A DNA stretch of 64,000 nucleotides from NCBI GenBank assembly GCA_945896675.1, contig CAMDEM010000005.1, positions 1 to 64,000 on the forward strand. The letters are read 5' to 3'. Positions 146 through 57,084 of this stretch are shown in pieces. The DNA is from Cyanobium sp. NIES-981 (GTDB taxonomy: Bacteria > Cyanobacteriota > Cyanobacteriia > PCC-6307 > Cyanobiaceae). The translations under genes and the position numbers were made by a program. The notes beneath the pieces are model-generated. The model had not been told where the DNA came from. It saw only the letters and a list, made by a program, of their open reading frames with translations, and did no database searches. Numbering within the stretch: the first letter of the stretch is position 1; every line of letters starts with the position of its first letter.

Positions 146-241
146 TCACTTGAAGGCTTCAACGGTGGGCACCTGAGCCTGTGCCTTAAGCGCCGCCAAT
201 CTGGCGTCCTGCATCTGGCAGGCGTATTCGATCACGTTCAT
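146..241 (-). CDS. Small unknown ORF, 31 aa, last of an overlapping chain
   Basis: A 31-residue ORF beginning MNVIEYACQMQDARLAALK. Its ATG overlaps the stop of the preceding ORF (238-543) in an ATGA arrangement, which suggests translational coupling. No domain is recognisable; the middle is Ala/Gln rich and could be helical. It is supported only by its place at the end of four consecutively overlapping minus-strand ORFs. The sequence to its left (1-145) shows no clear gene apart from a possible ATG near base 17 running off the window. It could be spurious. Confidence 0.35.
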   Translation of the reverse strand: MNVIEYACQMQDARLAALKAQAQVPTVEAFK

Positions 242-543
242 GGCAAAACCTGATTCAGTAGGGCAAGTTCCAGATCGCACTCGCTTTGCTGGTCGATGAG
301 GCCACCAGCAATTTGCCGAAGGTCGTCACCTAGTTGTTGCAACTTTTGCTGCAATTCAATGCGACGATCTTCGATCTGCTTTTGGCATCCAGGATCAGCC
401 ACCAAGCGAGGCAGTTCTGTGGACCAGAAGTGATCGGTATCAGGCTTGCCTAGTTCGATGTTGCGGTCCAGTGCCTGTCGGTAGATGTGGTCCGGCACCC
501 GTAGCCAGTTTGCTGTTGGGTGCATTTTGGCGATGTGTGCCAT
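238..543 (-). CDS. Hypothetical protein, 101 aa, island ORF
   Basis: The protein starts MAHIAKMHPTANWLRVPDH. The ATG at 543 is preferred over a TTG two codons upstream because it overlaps the previous stop as TAATG. The central part (roughly residues 40-75) is rich in Glu, Gln, Arg and Leu and looks helical or coiled-coil. No signal peptide, membrane segment or known motif is visible. It sits between two other overlapping unknown ORFs, so the set is probably one transcript. Such short tightly overlapping genes are common in phages and integrated islands, but no phage hallmark protein is present here. Function unknown. Confidence 0.5.
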   Translation of the reverse strand: MAHIAKMHPTANWLRVPDHIYRQALDRNIELGKPDTDHFWSTELPRLVADPGCQKQIEDRRIELQQKLQQLGDDLRQIAGGLIDQQSECDLELALLNQVLP

Positions 544-959
544 TACCAACGCCTCCCTGTTGTGGTTGAAACACCAACGATGAAGGCGCGGTCCAGGTGC
601 TGCCTGTGGGCAGCGTTGGTGGCTTGCAATTCAGCGGTGGCAGCCTTCATCCGTTCGATCTGCTGTTGACGTTCTGCCTCGGCTTCCTGACGGGCGTAAT
701 CGGGTGCTGATGTGCCCTTACCGGCCGCAGCGGCCAAATAGCTAGCCAACGCCGGATCGTGGCGCTCAAGCAGTCCGATTGCGGTCAGATTCCCGACGCG
801 GTATGGATTCGGCACCTGGCCATGTTCACGGCGTCCAGAAGCCAGAAACCTGTCCATACCTTCAATCTTGGCCATCCTGGAAACAATGGCTCGAGCATCA
901 TCTTCGGCTGCGGCCGCTTTGCGATGGTCGGCATCAATCCGTGCATCAAGGTTAGACAT
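543..959 (-). CDS. Hypothetical protein, 138 aa, helical, island ORF
   Basis: Begins MSNLDARIDADHRKAAAAED. This ATG overlaps the stop of the upstream 55-codon ORF as TGATG, which decides the start over a longer in-frame version beginning at 1010. Two charged, Ala/Gln/Glu-rich stretches (about residues 8-35 and 88-125) look like long helices; a Gly-containing segment with NPYRVGNLTAIGLL lies between. No catalytic motif is recognised. It is the longest member of the overlapping ORF chain at 146-1126. The composition would fit a structural or scaffold-type small protein, but that is only an impression. Confidence 0.5.
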   Translation of the reverse strand: MSNLDARIDADHRKAAAAEDDARAIVSRMAKIEGMDRFLASGRREHGQVPNPYRVGNLTAIGLLERHDPALASYLAAAAGKGTSAPDYARQEAEAERQQQIERMKAATAELQATNAAHRQHLDRAFIVGVSTTTGRRW

Positions 960-1126
960 CAGTGGATCTCGACAGGAAAAGGACGTCGTGATTGTGGGGA
1001 TGCAAGGCAATCCGTTTCCGGCACCCGAGGCAGATCATCATCAGCAAGCCGTGCGAGCGTTGCCTCTGCTTGTAGCGCCGCCAATACAGCAGAGCCGGCT
1101 ACAAATATTGGATGCGGTGTTGGCAT
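959..1126 (-). CDS. Small unknown ORF, 55 aa, first of the overlapping chain
   Basis: Encodes MPTPHPIFVAGSAVLAALQ followed by an acidic middle and an Arg/Pro-rich tail ending EIH. The TGA stop shares one base with the ATG of the 138-aa ORF. An AAAGG lies about 11 bases before the ATG and a TATAAA-like element sits just upstream, so this may be the first gene of the short operon. A hydrophobic patch near residues 8-18 is too short and Ala/Gln-rich for a confident membrane helix. Unknown function. Confidence 0.4.
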   Translation of the reverse strand: MPTPHPIFVAGSAVLAALQAEATLARLADDDLPRVPETDCLASPQSRRPFPVEIH

Positions 1127-1196
1127 GATTCCAAAACCTTTATAACCATCACATTCTAAAGGCTTTGGACAAACTAGATCTTGCTAAGCCAATGAC

Positions 1197-1430
1197 CTAC
1201 TTCTTCCAGATGCGAACAATAGCCAGAACAAGGAAAGTGATGGCAAGAGATACCGCAGCAACGAGAAACAACCACGCCACCGGACCGACCATTCCATAAG
1301 GAAGCACCGTACTCATCTGCCATGCCAGGGTGTTAAAAAACTGAGAACCACCAAAGGATAGGAATGGTGCTGCCATGACAGCAGCAGTGGAGATGATGGC
1401 GGTTAAGGCGACGCGTAATGTCGTGTTCAT
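1197..1430 (-). CDS. Small membrane protein, 77 aa, unknown
   Basis: Two hydrophobic segments are visible, about residues 5-25 (ALTAIISTAAVMAAPFLSF) and 48-72 (GPVAWLFLVAAVSLAITFL), ending in a basic RIWKK tail. It therefore looks like a two-pass inner-membrane protein, or a signal-anchored one. No family is recognised. It lies alone between the overlapping ORF chain and a bidirectional hairpin at 1468-1497, within the accessory island next to tRNA-Pro. Confidence 0.5.
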   Translation of the reverse strand: MNTTLRVALTAIISTAAVMAAPFLSFGGSQFFNTLAWQMSTVLPYGMVGPVAWLFLVAAVSLAITFLVLAIVRIWKK

Positions 1431-1467
1431 TTAAAGTGTTAGAGGAAGTACCCACCGGCAAACAGCA

Positions 1468-1497
1468 AGCCTTCGGAGTTGTGCCCGAAGGCTTTTT
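1468..1497. terminator. Intrinsic terminator hairpin, probably two-way
   Basis: A perfect 9-bp stem (AGCCTTCGG with CCGAAGGCT) closes an 8-base loop. On the plus strand it is followed by TTTTT; on the minus strand the tail is the weaker TGCTGTTTG. The most likely client is the minus-strand pair ending at 1527, whose transcripts would meet it 34 bases after the stop codon. Confidence 0.6.
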
Positions 1498-1526
1498 ACC
1501 GAAAAGCCGCGACAGGACGAATCCGG

Positions 1527-1787
1527 TTATCTATTCAATATGTACACTCTATTGCAATAGTCGATGGATGTGGCAATAGGCTTCCCTTGGTCAATTATCT
1601 TCGAAAGTGCACAGTTGCAGTATTTGTTGACATCAGAAAGCGTCGACCTGAGTTGCTTATCGATAACGCCTTTCATACCATTGGCAACACATGAGTTCAT
1701 TTCTGACTGGGGATATGCCTCGGAAGGCAGTATTTGCATCCCTGCCAGCAGAGACAAACCCACCAAAATACTTAACTTAAGTGTCAT
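1527..1787 (-). CDS. Small secreted Cys-containing protein, 86 aa, unknown
   Basis: A typical Sec signal peptide is visible: MTLKLSILVGLSLLAGM, then a probable cleavage near SEA-YPQ. The mature part of about 60 residues carries four cysteines (NSCVANG, YCNCALSK, DYCNRV), which could form disulfides in the periplasm. The ATG at 1787 follows the stop of the upstream interrupted lipoprotein gene by only two bases, so the two were probably co-translated; a TTG at 1793 is a less likely start. Codon use and AT content differ from the core genome nearby, which fits recent acquisition. Function unknown. Confidence 0.5.
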   Translation of the reverse strand: MTLKLSILVGLSLLAGMQILPSEAYPQSEMNSCVANGMKGVIDKQLRSTLSDVNKYCNCALSKIIDQGKPIATSIDYCNRVYILNR

Positions 1788-1789
1788 CG

Positions 1790-2158
1790 TCAAAGGGCCG
1801 AAACAGGCTTAGCGTCTTCGTCGCGCCATCTACCGGGTCCTTCGCCTGGCGCAAAAATATCCACTCCCCTCCACACAATATTTTCGCCATCTAGCTTGCA
1901 TTCGTACTTGAAGAGCTTCTGGTCATCCGACCTGATATAGCTTATTGCGACAAGGGATCCATCGTCGTCTACACGGTCAACATTCATTGAAGACACTGGA
2001 CGCCCCATAAGCTCTCCAATATATTTTTTACATGCTGAACTGAGGTCAACTTTAGGAACAGTCTATACCTCTGGCTGTCCGCATGCTTGCAGCAAAATAC
2101 CCACAAGAGCCAACGCGGATATGGTTTTAATGCCAATCAGACGTAAGGACTTCTTCAC
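1790..2158 (-). pseudogene. Lipoprotein gene interrupted by an in-frame TAG
   Basis: Reading from a GTG at 2158 gives a lipoprotein signal peptide (VKKSLRLIGIKTISALALVG) with a lipobox ILLQAC at residues 22-26, then GQPEV and a TAG at 2065-2063. The same frame continues without another stop as TVPKVDLSSACKKYIGELMG and on to ...DEDAKPVSAL at 1790. The unbroken downstream frame and the complete secretion signal upstream indicate one ~122-residue lipoprotein split by a single nonsense codon. An ATG at 2008 with GGAGAG upstream could restart translation of the last 72 residues, but without export. It could instead be a sequencing error. Mature-domain family not recognised. Confidence 0.6.
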
Positions 2159-2262
2159 GATGCTCAGCAGATAGTCGTTAGAACGATAGGGCAAAGATTG
2201 CCAGCAAGAGCTAGCCGCAAGACAGCGAAGTCAGCTGGATGCACCCCTATCGCTCTGCAGGG

Positions 2263-2358
2263 TCAATCCAGCATCTGAATCCAGACCCACCAGAGCACCG
2301 CCACCGGCACCATCGCCAGGGCCAGCACAGCAAGGCTCTGAAGCTGTTCTGGGTTCAT
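2263..2358 (-). CDS. Tiny single-pass membrane peptide, 31 aa
   Basis: Encodes MNPEQLQSLAVLALAMVPVA, then VLWWVWIQMLD. A short polar N-terminus leads into one hydrophobic helix of about 20 residues rich in Trp, and the C-terminus is Asp. It starts four bases after the stop of the 43-aa membrane ORF, so the two may be a coupled pair. Its length prevents family assignment. Membrane-peptide pairs of this shape occur among small photosystem subunits, holins and toxin peptides, and the sequence does not discriminate between them. Confidence 0.35.
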   Translation of the reverse strand: MNPEQLQSLAVLALAMVPVAVLWWVWIQMLD

Positions 2359-2362
2359 CGGC

Positions 2363-2494
2363 TCAGCTGAGCCGCAGCCTGACCAGAACCAACACCAGAG
2401 CGGCAGCTAGCAGCCAGTAAAGCCATGTGAGCTTGAACGCAATGGCAGCCACCAAGCCCAAGGCAAACAGGATTGCGAAGCGGCCAAGTGTCAT
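2363..2494 (-). CDS. Tiny membrane peptide, 43 aa
   Basis: Encodes MTLGRFAILFALGLVAAIAF, then KLTWLYWLLAAALVLVLVRL and RLS. Two adjacent hydrophobic stretches separated by one Lys could be a hairpin or one bent helix; the basic C-terminus predicts a cytoplasmic tail. No Shine-Dalgarno is obvious. It is followed after four bases by another membrane peptide. Supported by the clean hydrophobic pattern and pairing, not by recognised homology. Confidence 0.4.
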   Translation of the reverse strand: MTLGRFAILFALGLVAAIAFKLTWLYWLLAAALVLVLVRLRLS

Positions 2495-2588
2495 GGATCA
2501 GGGGCCAGATTCACCGCAGCTTGGACGAAAAAACAGCACAAAACCCAGTGCTTGCGGCACTTCTGTCATACCAATGGATCTCGGCTAT

Positions 2589-2639
2589 TGCCGTCAGATT
2601 GCCGTCAGAATCTTGACGGCAGAATCAGCCTTGCCGTCA
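2589..2639. repeat. Cluster of four TGCCGTCA octamers next to tRNA-Pro
   Basis: TGCCGTCA occurs at 2589-2596 and 2600-2607 (as a direct repeat of ATTGCCGTCAGA with 11-base spacing) and at 2632-2639, and in inverted orientation at 2614-2621. All four lie within 51 bases and end 40 bases from the tRNA 3' end. Short direct and inverted repeats beside a tRNA 3' end are the usual form of arm-type binding sites of tyrosine recombinases (established for phage and island att sites). The inverted pair can also fold as an 8-bp hairpin, but no T-run follows on the minus strand. Confidence 0.5.
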
Positions 2640-2678
2640 TCAACGGCCAAAACCGCTGCTGTTACTGGCTTTTGAAAA

Positions 2679-2752
2679 TCGGGGCGACAGGATTCGAACC
2701 TGCGACCTAGTGCTCCCAAAGCACCCGCGCTACCAAGCTGCGCCACGCCCCG
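2679..2752 (-). tRNA. tRNA-Pro (anticodon UGG)
   Basis: On the minus strand a full cloverleaf can be read: a 7-bp acceptor stem CGGGGCG/CGCCCCG with discriminator A, D-loop AGCTTGGTAGC, anticodon loop CTTTGGGAG with anticodon TGG, and T arm GGTTCGAATCC. The 3' CCA is not encoded. The 3' end points left, toward the accessory island at 1-2670, which is the usual orientation when a tRNA serves as an integration site. Confidence 0.95.
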
Positions 2753-2767
2753 CTTTAGGCAACTTAA

Positions 2768-2804
2768 CCCTTTACCCCCCTCTTGATGACAGTGGGATAA
2801 AGGG
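2768..2804. promoter_or_regulatory. Inverted repeat upstream of tRNA-Pro and the 59-aa ORF
   Basis: CCCTTTA (2768-2774) pairs with TAAAGGG (2798-2804), with three further C-G pairs possible after one mismatch. It lies in the 90-base gap between two divergent transcription units (tRNA-Pro leftward, small ORF rightward). No T-run follows on either strand, so it is more likely an operator or mRNA leader structure than a terminator. Could be chance. Confidence 0.3.
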
Positions 2805-2841
2805 CAGCTAGTCTTGAAACCAACACAGAGAGGGATATGCG

Positions 2842-3021
2842 ATGTCGTTTGAAACCCGCTCCAGTTTCGAATCCGCCCAAACCCTCGGCAACTCCTGCAT
2901 GAAGTGGGGGGCCGACGGCGAGCTGTCGGCCATTGATTTGCAATCAATCCTGCAGCGACTCAGCGCCGTCGACGAACAGGCCTCCACCCTGATGGACTGT
3001 CCGATCAACCGCGGGGCCTAG
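2842..3021 (+). CDS. Small conserved-looking protein, 59 aa, unknown
   Basis: Encodes MSFETRSSFESAQTLGNSCM, a central GADGELSAIDLQSILQRLSAV and a C-terminal MDCPINRGA. The start is supported by AGGG seven bases before the ATG. The middle could form one amphipathic helix pair; two Cys residues are present. The stop overlaps the stop of ridA on the other strand by four bases (tail to tail). It sits on the core-genome side of tRNA-Pro. No family recognised. Confidence 0.5.
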   Translation: MSFETRSSFESAQTLGNSCMKWGADGELSAIDLQSILQRLSAVDEQASTLMDCPINRGA

Positions 3022-3416
3022 CCCACAAGGGCGATGCAATCAATTTCGACCCGGGCCCCCTTGGGCAGGGCAGCCACTTCCACGCAGGCCCGGGCAGGGG
3101 CCACGCCCGAGCTGAACAGTTCGGCATACAGGGCGTTCACCTTGGCAAAGTCGGCCAAATCAGCCAGAAATACCGTGGTGCGCACCACCTGCTGGGGGCT
3201 TGAACCGCCGGCGGTCAAAACCGCCGCCAGGTTGCTTAGCACCTGGCGGGTTTCCGCTTCCACATCGCCCCCGCCAACCATCGCGCCCGTTTGGGGATCC
3301 AGGGCAATCTGGCCGGAGCAGAAGAGCAGCTCGCCGGCTCTTACCGCTTGGTTGTAGGGGCCCACGGGGGCCGGAGCTGACGCGGTGATCACCGCTTCGG
3401 CTTGGATGGTACTCAT
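3018..3416 (-). CDS. ridA: RidA family enamine/imine deaminase
   Basis: RidA hydrolyses reactive 2-aminoacrylate and other enamines released by PLP enzymes, protecting them from damage; it acts in the cytosol as a trimer. The 132-residue length fits the family (~130). Visible family features are APAPVGPYNQAVRAG near the N-terminus, FCSGQIALDP, the segment QVLSNLAAVLTAGGSS, VVRTTVFLADLADF, and the C-terminal P.ARACVEVAALPKGARVEID, whose Arg (in PARAC) is the substrate-carboxylate ligand. The start MSTIQAEA at 3416 is preferred over the in-frame extension to 3470 because it matches usual length. It follows the ion-channel gene by 41 bases in the same direction. Confidence 0.93.
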   Translation of the reverse strand: MSTIQAEAVITASAPAPVGPYNQAVRAGELLFCSGQIALDPQTGAMVGGGDVEAETRQVLSNLAAVLTAGGSSPQQVVRTTVFLADLADFAKVNALYAELFSSGVAPARACVEVAALPKGARVEIDCIALVG

Positions 3417-3457
3417 GTTGCTAGGCCTGGACCTGAAAGGGACATTCGATGGGCCAT

Positions 3458-4606
3458 TTAAGCCATCCAAGCCATAAAGGCGGCTACTACGGTGCCAACA
3501 ACGGCCGAAACCTGAAAAATGGTGTCGGCCCGATTAATGGTGGCGAGGGCTTGTTCTTTCCCCTTTTTGGGTGTCCTTTGGTAGAAGTTGGTACCCCAAA
3601 CAAACAGCAAAAATGTTCCGATCGAAATGACATAACCGCAGGCATAGATCCAGTCAAGGAAGGTTAAATAGTCGAGCTCAGGAAGCTCAGCTTGGTAAGC
3701 CTGTTGCAGAAAGATCATGGTAAGAAGACCTGTCGATGGTATGGCCAATCGAATATCGCCAAGTTCTCCTTCGAGGGAGGGAGCCAAAATGACAATCCCC
3801 ACCACAATCATCAGCGGTAAAAAGTATTTGAGGATACTGGGCAAAGGCGTGCTCTTCAGGGTCGCCTGGAGGGCCACCCCCGAGTAGGACAAATCTCCAC
3901 TGTTCAACCCCATTTTGGTACCAAAGGCGTGAACAGTGGGTTCCAAAATTGAAGAAGTAATCTTATAACCGTTGATTTCCGCAAATGACCCCACAAGGGC
4001 ATTTCTGCCTGACTCAGGCACCAAAATTACATTGCCTCTTTGGATGGCCAGACTGTCGTCACTCACTTCAAAAATGACGGGCAATTGCACCGATTCAAAC
4101 GGAAAACGTTTGAGGTTGATATCGGGGATGTAAAAATTTGCTGAGAATTGAAACTGCTGATAATAGTTTCCATTGGCCAGGCGTACGGGTTCTTCGCTAG
4201 CGCTAGTGATCTGGCCGTCCCAGGTGTCGACCTGATTAGCCAAAACGATGATCGCTTTAGGTTCGATCTTCTCGCTATCGAGCTTGTTTTGAAAACCCTG
4301 GGGCCATTCGAGCCAGTAGGAGCCCTCAGCCACAAAGCGGCGATTGTGCAGAGAAAGGTCATGGAAATTCTCTACATAGGCACCCACTTTTACCTCAATC
4401 GCGTTGGGCTTACTGAGCAGCTCTTTAATGTTGGCAGGCGCAAAACTGGCCACATCGCGATTCGATCGCGGGCTGGCTGGGCCCGCTCCACTGGGGCTCT
4501 GGAGGGCCAGGATCACTCCCACGCACAGCGCGCTCAGCAGGAATTTTGAGGCGATGCCGGAGGCCAGTCGCAACCGGCGCCAGATGGGGGTTGTCAAAAA
4601 CGCCAT
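3458..4606 (-). CDS. Pentameric ligand-gated ion channel homologue (GLIC/ELIC type)
   Basis: The 382-residue protein has a signal-like segment (about residues 22-43), a beta-rich extracellular domain (60-255) and four membrane helices at about 260-277, 284-304, 312-340 and 363-381, the pLGIC plan. Family features include VKVGAYVENFHDLSLH and SYWLEWPQGF in the first half, the LKRFPFESVQLPV stretch corresponding to the FPFDxQ loop of Cys-loop receptors, a Pro in M1 (FLPLM), and ELPELDYLTFLDW before M3, close to the NLPKTPYMTY region of GLIC. As in other prokaryotic members the Cys pair of the eukaryotic Cys-loop is missing. ATG 4606 avoids overlap with gloB. Likely a plasma-membrane cation or proton-gated channel; ligand and selectivity are not readable. 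It lies between gloB and ridA, all in one direction with gaps of 41-50 bases. Confidence 0.75.
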   Translation of the reverse strand: MAFLTTPIWRRLRLASGIASKFLLSALCVGVILALQSPSGAGPASPRSNRDVASFAPANIKELLSKPNAIEVKVGAYVENFHDLSLHNRRFVAEGSYWLEWPQGFQNKLDSEKIEPKAIIVLANQVDTWDGQITSASEEPVRLANGNYYQQFQFSANFYIPDINLKRFPFESVQLPVIFEVSDDSLAIQRGNVILVPESGRNALVGSFAEINGYKITSSILEPTVHAFGTKMGLNSGDLSYSGVALQATLKSTPLPSILKYFLPLMIVVGIVILAPSLEGELGDIRLAIPSTGLLTMIFLQQAYQAELPELDYLTFLDWIYACGYVISIGTFLLFVWGTNFYQRTPKKGKEQALATINRADTIFQVSAVVGTVVAAFMAWMA

Positions 4607-55848: not shown

Positions 55849-57084
55849 GTGAGCCAGCTAGTTGCAAACACCCCGCCCGTGGGCACGCAGATCGAGGCTG
55901 CCCTTGCCGAACAAAACGCCCTCCTAAGTGCGGCGGGCATTGGTTTGCGGTTCGAGAAACGGGGCGAACGGCTGGGCCTGCGGGGCCCACTGCCGTGCCG
56001 CCAGGGCAGGGCTGCCCACCCGGTTCAGCGGATCAGCTTGGGATTACCGGCCACACCCGATGGCCTGGAGCAGGCCAAAGCCCAACTCAAGGACGTTCTC
56101 CGCCAGCTCCAACAGCAACGGTTTGATTGGTCGTTCTGGGCCCGCCAGGGCAAGCCTGGAACCCAGCAGTTGCTCGAGACCAACGGCCCCCGCTACCAGG
56201 AACGGGCTGGGTTCGATCTTGTGATTCAAGAGTTCGAGGAGGCCTTTTTCAGGGATCCCCGCCGGCGCCGCAATCCATCAGGAGCGAAAACCACCTGGAC
56301 CAGCGCCTATCGCCCCTACCTGCGCCGCATGGCGGCCCTGGCAGGGGAATCGGGCCCGGCCCTCGATCGCAGACTGTTTGAGCAGGTCCTGGAGAGCTAC
56401 GAGCCCACCAGCCGCAGCCGGCAGCAATGCGGCACCGCCCTCGCTGCCCTGGCCCGCCACCGCGCCATTGCCCTTCCAGAGGATTGGTCGGAACGGGCGG
56501 CTGGTTACGGCTTGCATGCCGCCCAATTCCGTCGCCTGCCCAGCGATAGCCAAATTGTGGACGGCATCGAACGGGTGCCCAACCCCTCTTGGCGCCTGGC
56601 CTATGGGCTGATGGCCACCTATGGACTGCGCAATCACGAGGTCTTCTTCTGCGACCTCTCGGCCCTCGCCCCGGGCGGCGATCGGGTGATTCGCGTGCTT
56701 CCCACCAGCAAAACCGGCGAGCACCAGGTGTGGCCGTTCCAGCCGGATTGGGTGGAGCGCTTTGGCCTCGAGCAATTGGGCGAGGCACCCCAGTTGTTAC
56801 CCCAGGTGAGCACGGATCTGCGGCGCACCACCCTGCAGCAGGTGGGCCGGCGGGTGGCCGAGCAATTCCACCGCTATGGCCTCAGCCACACCCCCTACGA
56901 CCTGCGCCATGCCTGGGCGGTCCGAACCATTCACATCGGCCTGCCCGACACGGTTTCAGCGCGGATGATGGGCCACTCGGTGGCGATTCACACGCGCACC
57001 TACCACCACTGGATTACCCGGCGCGATCAACAGCAGGCCGTCGATACGGCCCTGGCCCGCCTGGCCCAGACAAAAGCCGCCTGA
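55849..57084 (+). CDS. Orphan tyrosine recombinase
   Basis: 411 residues. The N-terminal part (1-190) is a SAM-like core-binding domain. Catalytic residues of the integrase family: Arg261 (YGLRNHEV), Lys288 (TSKTGEHQ), Arg353 in PYDLRHAW, His376 (MMGHSV) and nucleophile Tyr385 (TRTYHHW). The HxxR box is YDLR, with Tyr in place of His, which occurs in some families. Start is GTG at 55849. No repeats, excisionase or cargo genes are adjacent, and it lies in core housekeeping sequence; a chromosome-resident recombinase (as found widely in picocyanobacteria) is more likely than an active mobile element. It is 53 kb from the tRNA-Pro island. Confidence 0.85.

Follow-up and report, generated by a model that had tools for sequence, protein, structure and literature searches.

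The window, by which we mean the whole 64,000-nucleotide stretch of DNA that was analysed, starts at the first base of contig C5 in an assembly of 1.97 Mb, 48 contigs and 88.5% completeness. Close to this contig end lies an intact tRNA-Pro(UGG) gene on the minus strand (2679-2752; anticodon TGG by ARAGORN), the predicted host attachment gene. The DNA to its left (150-2676) is the remnant, at the non-integrase end, of an integrated element and is 98% identical by blastn to L038 14209-16738 in the relative G005. Homology to the G005 element ends at base 150, and the contig edge (2-250, plus strand) holds the C-terminal part of what looks like an IS3-type transposase (rve_3, below cut-off). The ORFs on this side of the tRNA are small, as the preliminary description had noted, and ORF 1790-2008 encodes 72 aa compared with 134 aa for its counterpart in the intact element. 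Positions 2263-2495 match, over all or some of their length, DNA close to tRNA-Pro in G009, G014 and G012 at ~89-93% identity, and the repeats between this segment and the tRNA differ among these genomes despite that similarity; read on the minus strand, the segment could code for two very small hydrophobic peptides (by eye).

Beyond the 3′ end of the tRNA gene lie four copies of an octamer: TGCCGTCA is found on the plus strand at 2589-2596, 2600-2607 and 2632-2639 and on the minus strand at 2614-2621. Read in the sense of the tRNA, the copies start 40 (direct), 58 (inverted), and 72 and 83 (both direct) bases past its 3′ end, leaving a gap of 39 bases to the nearest. The three direct copies and one inverted copy of the preliminary description, their clustering and the gap of about 39 bases were all reproduced; the octamer as a unit stands as far as its copies go, the true repeat unit being 11 bp and the octamer only the best-conserved part of it. 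The two distal copies are contained in an exact direct pair of 11-bp repeats, TCTGACGGCAA twice (2588-2609, minus strand), which forms the distal pair of a putative P′ arm and was matched as an exact 11-bp tandem by 0/300 shuffles (p = 0.003). The same arm holds the inverted octamer (TGACGGCA on the plus strand, 2614-2621) and a proximal octamer (TGACGGCA in tRNA sense, 2632-2639, minus strand). Single copies are ordinary, with 6 in 64 kb versus 2.81 expected; no 8-mer in the window other than TGACGGCA reaches four non-overlapping copies within 60 bp, counting either strand, and four-copy 8-mer clusters were found in 0/40 dinucleotide-shuffled windows.

We did not find an integrase for the window's own element in the window's assembly. 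Because the contig begins inside the element, beside the IS fragment, the window holds only the non-integrase end, and the absence of the integrase from the assembly is not counter-evidence. The preliminary description had suggested that the gene lay to the left or had been lost; its absence is confirmed for the assembly, and it should lie leftward, beyond the contig start. A PF00589 profile search of the genome gave one match, gene 55849-57084, which we rejected as the element's integrase: it lies ~53 kb to the right of tRNA-Pro with no adjoining tRNA, and shares only 25% identity with the G005 integrase, in the catalytic part only. This gene encodes a divergent, tyrosine-recombinase-like protein of 411 aa, with PF00589 barely above cut-off; it overlaps the beginning of an ORF that, by eye, looks like a ferrochelatase.

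An intact copy of the element in G005

Window positions 2587-3470 were used as a query against 60 relatives. The octamers and tRNA-Pro (2587-2752) have a 100% match in G005, a single-contig genome of 2.66 Mb, and blastn extends the similarity over window positions 150-2752 at 98% identity (2606 bp), compared with ~69% for the nearby backbone (the RidA region and beyond). In G009, the closest relative by backbone (~91%), the DNA right after the tRNA is quite different and carries a pair of its own, TGTACGGAAGA twice. An element at 98% identity beside a backbone at ~69%, together with the difference in G009, is what transfer into a fixed site leaves behind. The preliminary description held that synteny conserved across the tRNA in all relatives would speak against an attachment site; we found that the RidA side is conserved and that the other side varies between genomes.

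Reading from RidA, G005 first has a copy of the tRNA-Pro 5′ half (A). After ~25 kb come an integrase gene and then the full-length tRNA-Pro (B), accompanied by the octamers. Another ~9 kb leads to a second integrase gene (424 aa; L039 2705-3979), beyond which the tRNA 3′ half is repeated over 48 bp (C) and a flank with its own repeats follows. The window matches the start of the element between B and C, which has the second integrase at one end. The att core is the 3′ half of the tRNA gene plus 2 bp (window 2677-2724, minus strand); these 48 bp form a direct repeat of the 3′ part of tRNA-Pro at both ends of the G005 element (far copy, L039 4101-4148), and one of these ends is present in the window. 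At the far end in G005, beside the integrase start, we found TGCCGTCA and two copies of CGACGGCA spaced 11 bp. Allowing at most one mismatch, the 9,016-bp element contains 20 octamer sites, 8 at the termini (4 each) and 12 elsewhere, and 5/6 exact octamers are terminal. The pairing of both ends is shown only in G005, because the window's assembly lacks an integrase for this element. In that copy, both the repeat of the tRNA 3′ end and the integrase at the other end that the preliminary description had anticipated are present, and the octamers match as well. The layout that it proposed, a tRNA 3′-end attachment site with arm-type repeats, is thus supported by comparison with G005, and the octamers would be arm-type sites as it had supposed, with the difference that they belong to the element, as its P′ arm, and not to the host.

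A mirror-image kind of element occupies the same tRNA, duplicating the 5′ half of tRNA-Pro and including the same anticodon region. In these 5′-half elements the integrase adjoins the 5′ end of the intact tRNA (L037 2945-2984 and L038 12771-14208 in G005; L042 and L040 in G003). The overlap of the 3′-half and 5′-half partial copies defines a probable crossover segment in the anticodon region (window 2713-2724, minus strand), common to elements that duplicate either half.

Arm repeats and integrases at other tRNA-Pro sites

A first set of 60 distinct tRNA-Pro flanks, taken from the 60-relative search and enriched for partial copies, showed a direct repeat at p < 0.05 in 44 flanks and a run of at least 7 bp in 46, with lags of 11 (28 flanks), 12 (17) and 10 (1). 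For a second, less biased set, 60 full-length tRNA-Pro sites were selected among the results of a search through 300 genomes of the family, and two of these sites had flanks that were too short. With a qualifying repeat defined by a lag of 10-13, a length of at least 7 bp and a position within 120 bp, and with the stretch 180-300 bp downstream as control, such repeats were present in 45/58 flanks compared with 3/57 controls, and were missing at 13/58 sampled sites. The sequence of the repeat differs widely among elements. Core-to-arm distances cluster at 26-31, 48-53, 63-65 and 72-76, with R of 0.76 at 11-11.5 bp and 0.63 at 10.5; we do not claim helical phasing from these values, as shared ancestry can account for the clusters. 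At six loci (L058, L060, L064, L065, L102 and L109) the repeats are spaced at 12 bp and the P arm lies ~150 bp away from the core; the integrases of these 12-bp-spacing elements are closer to one another than to those of the 11-bp class. In the P′ flanks of L046, L060 and L067 an inverted part-copy of the core (TTGCGACCTAGG or nearly) precedes the repeats (by eye).

The attP of phage lambda is laid out as P / core / P′. Consecutive tRNA-Pro copies in six-plus genomes gave 18 pairs, listed after the repeats had been seen. In each, we matched the P′ flank of the first copy against the upstream DNA of its successor, the true partner, and against 17 other candidates. The true partner matched best, with no tie, in 12/18 pairs, at distances of up to ~69 kb; of the 6 without a unique best partner, two were tied (with 1 and 2 of the 17 others equal) and four failed. 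Two more cases of matching ends, in G010 and G007, run across contigs. Among viral contigs carrying a 42-bp core, the same repeat lies on both sides in 14/20, as in an unintegrated attP; of the other six, one runs off its contig and five have the look of host junctions. At host junctions, where two different elements abut, the same repeat is present on both sides in 2/35. The contrast between viral contigs and host junctions fits the prediction of a P-core-P′ model. We also considered whether co-resident elements avoid shared arms, as a guard against cross-excision, and rejected this, the 2/35 observed comparing with 1.11 expected from shuffled pairing. A sigma-70-like gene (L107 1749-2651, identified by eye) adjoins the tRNA-Pro attP of one viral contig.

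Relatives of the G005 integrase were elusive: a degenerate-pattern search yielded none in genome contigs, where 7 candidates failed, or in viral contigs, tblastn detected no relatives among phages, and relatives were recovered only with an alignment of viral integrases. Searching phage records with a 50-bp core gave only phage tRNA-Pro genes among the matches listed. Relatives in named genomes come mostly from Synechococcus, Cyanobium, Prochlorococcus and Aphanothece records or cyanobacterial MAGs. A fragment of an integrase of this cyanobacterial family is encoded (L259 6550-7137) on a contig that is titled as a Bifidobacterium breve MAG and is probably misbinned. Of 30 loci scanned we counted 24, leaving out 6 with partial matches, and found the tRNA-Pro core beside the integrase in 23/24, with a P repeat of at least 7 bp in 20 of those 23. 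All 10 aligned integrases from viral contigs match PF00589 at E ≤ 1 (best, 4e-6), and R243, R352, H375 and Y384, which we take to be the catalytic R, R, H, Y set, are invariant in the 10-member alignment; the G005 integrase aligns through the same boxes. The L108 integrase is 44% identical to that of G005, and its AlphaFold model (pLDDT 83) has an N-terminal domain of a helix, three strands and a helix, followed by core-binding and catalytic parts, and aligns to lambda Int (1z1g_A; Z 12.4, rmsd 9.5, 287 residues). Modelled alone, the N-terminal domain gave the same helix and strand elements (pLDDT 82); it had no significant match in the PDB, and the arm-binding domains of lambda and Tn916 were absent among the matches listed.

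The sequences themselves show that the element is shared, that its core is repeated over 48 bp, that the repeats at its two ends match and that the wording of such repeats is element-specific across the family. On this basis we propose, with a probability of roughly 0.9, that a tyrosine-recombinase element has integrated in tRNA-Pro(UGG) and that the repeats in the window are its predicted P′ arm-type binding sites. Protein binding, activity and the direction of integration we infer as follows. The catalytic part of the integrase would bind at the tRNA core, with crossover taking place in the anticodon region, and the N-terminal domain would grip the 11-bp repeats on both flanks, holding the complex together. 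Integration would join the 3′ half of the tRNA carried by the element, with its trailing repeats, to the 5′ half of the host gene, restoring the tRNA, and the old host 3′ half would be displaced to the far end of the element.

The repeats could instead be operator or other regulatory sites of a small element protein, either a repressor or an excisionase, that lie near the tRNA by coincidence. The viral contigs matching a double-octamer pattern number 45; octamers were counted in them, and in the one that was read, an unrelated contig in which no tRNA core was seen, seven TGACGGCA octamers within 155 bp (L144 167-321) form an apparent operator array, so that the octamer alone is not diagnostic; the intact element also encodes a small HTH protein adjoining its integrase (L039 2225-2479). 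We nevertheless regard an operator role as improbable, since the repeats recur at both ends of elements, keep set distances from the tRNA core and, in the majority of viral contigs noted above, lie to either side of it. Less probable still is a transcription terminator or processing hairpin of the tRNA, which would draw on the ability of TGCCGTCA and TGACGGCA to pair and on the somewhat better folding of the octamer region than of its shuffles (z −2.02), but is at odds with the direct, not inverted, repeats of nearly all relatives, with separate T-tailed hairpins between tRNA and repeats in several copies (by eye), and with the recurrence of the same repeats tens of kb away, at the integrase end. 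Chance repetition in a decaying intergenic region, which would suit the near-chance frequency of single octamers, has a negligible probability, being contradicted by the partner matching of element ends, by the shuffled windows, in which no such cluster arose, and by the conservation of the cluster in G005.

Integrase N termini and arm repeats

Nineteen pairs of integrases are at least 0.89 identical outside the N terminus. Fourteen of them have the same arms and an N-terminal identity of at least 0.92, whereas the five with different arms, representing three contrasts, have an N-terminal identity of 0.55-0.68. In two of these contrasts the spacer between core and P′ is nearly the same (26/28 for L103/L115 and 25/28 for L100/L113), though both repeat pairs change alike; in the third, L107/L110, the spacer is divergent (17/51). 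Since the P arm adjoins or overlaps the start of the integrase gene, the joint replacement of the P arm and N terminus could be a single event. Such an event accounts less readily for a P′ pair that changes while the core and spacer in front of it are conserved.

A larger set comprised 51 integrases, with pairs 0.72-0.999 identical outside the N terminus, many of them non-independent. N-terminal identity averaged 0.89 for same-arm pairs (n = 36) and 0.57 for different-arm pairs (n = 30), with six intermediate-arm pairs excluded. Across all 1,275 integrase pairs, arm similarity goes more closely with the remainder of the protein (0.57) than with its N terminus (0.44), and the partial correlation between arms and N terminus is 0.18, a value reached by 1/500 label permutations. 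There are exceptions in both directions: the close pair L038/L040 has different arms and an N-terminal identity of 0.86, and L238/L239 have the same arms at 0.75. The apparent coupling of N terminus and arms is therefore clear in the close contrasts and not separated from ancestry overall. Our tentative reading, to which we give slightly less than an even chance, is that tRNA-Pro is one constant target common to many elements and viruses, among which the integrase N-terminal domain and the two pairs of 11-bp arms swap together as an exchangeable module, with the core, spacers and catalytic domain staying nearly constant.

Relation to known systems

Arm repeat pairs at tRNA or tmRNA cores, their variation and their link to the integrase N terminus are already known from Cluster K mycobacteriophages. 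In that cluster, paired 11-bp arm repeats flank a tRNA or tmRNA core, related phages that share a core carry different repeat sequences and different residues at the integrase N terminus, and the different arm specificities at one attP were termed "ill-defined" in the Cluster K paper. The tRNA-Pro elements are alike in having 11-bp repeat pairs around a tRNA core and, in close contrasts, repeat words that vary with the integrase N terminus. They differ in scale, Cluster K involving one or two substitutions in a few phages at tmRNA or tRNA-Lys, and the present family a single tRNA-Pro core with dozens of repeat words in cyanobacterial islands and viral contigs. Lambda integrase and attP (1z1g, 1z1b and 5j0n) are comparable in the fold of the relative's model and in the order of arms and core; identity to lambda is ~10%, however, the core is the anticodon-to-3′ segment of a tRNA, and the arms are direct pairs of 11-12 bp.

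Hackl et al., in 2023, are said to have described Prochlorococcus tycheposons as tRNA-bordered islands with a tyrosine recombinase. As far as the second-hand description in PMC10872708 goes, tycheposons share with the present elements the tRNA-bordered islands, a tyrosine recombinase and the bacterial family. The cyanophages S-TIP37, P-SSP7 and P-SS2 have attP sites at tRNA-Leu or tRNA-Met, and integration of S-TIP37 needs int and attP (PMC8776855, PMC2784084). On these partial accounts they too represent phage integration into cyanobacterial tRNA genes, using other tRNAs, and arm repeats are not mentioned in the portions describing them. An arm-binding domain is given as a mark of mobile-element integrases in the part of PMC8138268 consulted, and for marine cyanobacteria both islands bordered by a tRNA and att sites of phages have, to the extent covered by such excerpts, been published at other tRNAs. 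A literature search whose reach did not include the main tycheposon paper found no account of arm repeats at cyanobacterial tRNA-Pro.

The family is of interest for the wide range of arms that occur at a single core. Little has been mapped of how the N-terminal domains of integrases recognise arm sites, and one tRNA core with dozens of arm words, each with its own integrase, is a natural panel for recognition. In practical terms, arm pairs flag the two ends of islands that span tens of kb, draft genomes included, and can tie an island to its integrase across contigs, as in G010 and G007. In lambda and HK022, the arms are kept and the core specificity changes. If the joint swapping of arms and N termini is true, arm recognition in these elements would be the reverse: a fast-evolving, almost modular code.
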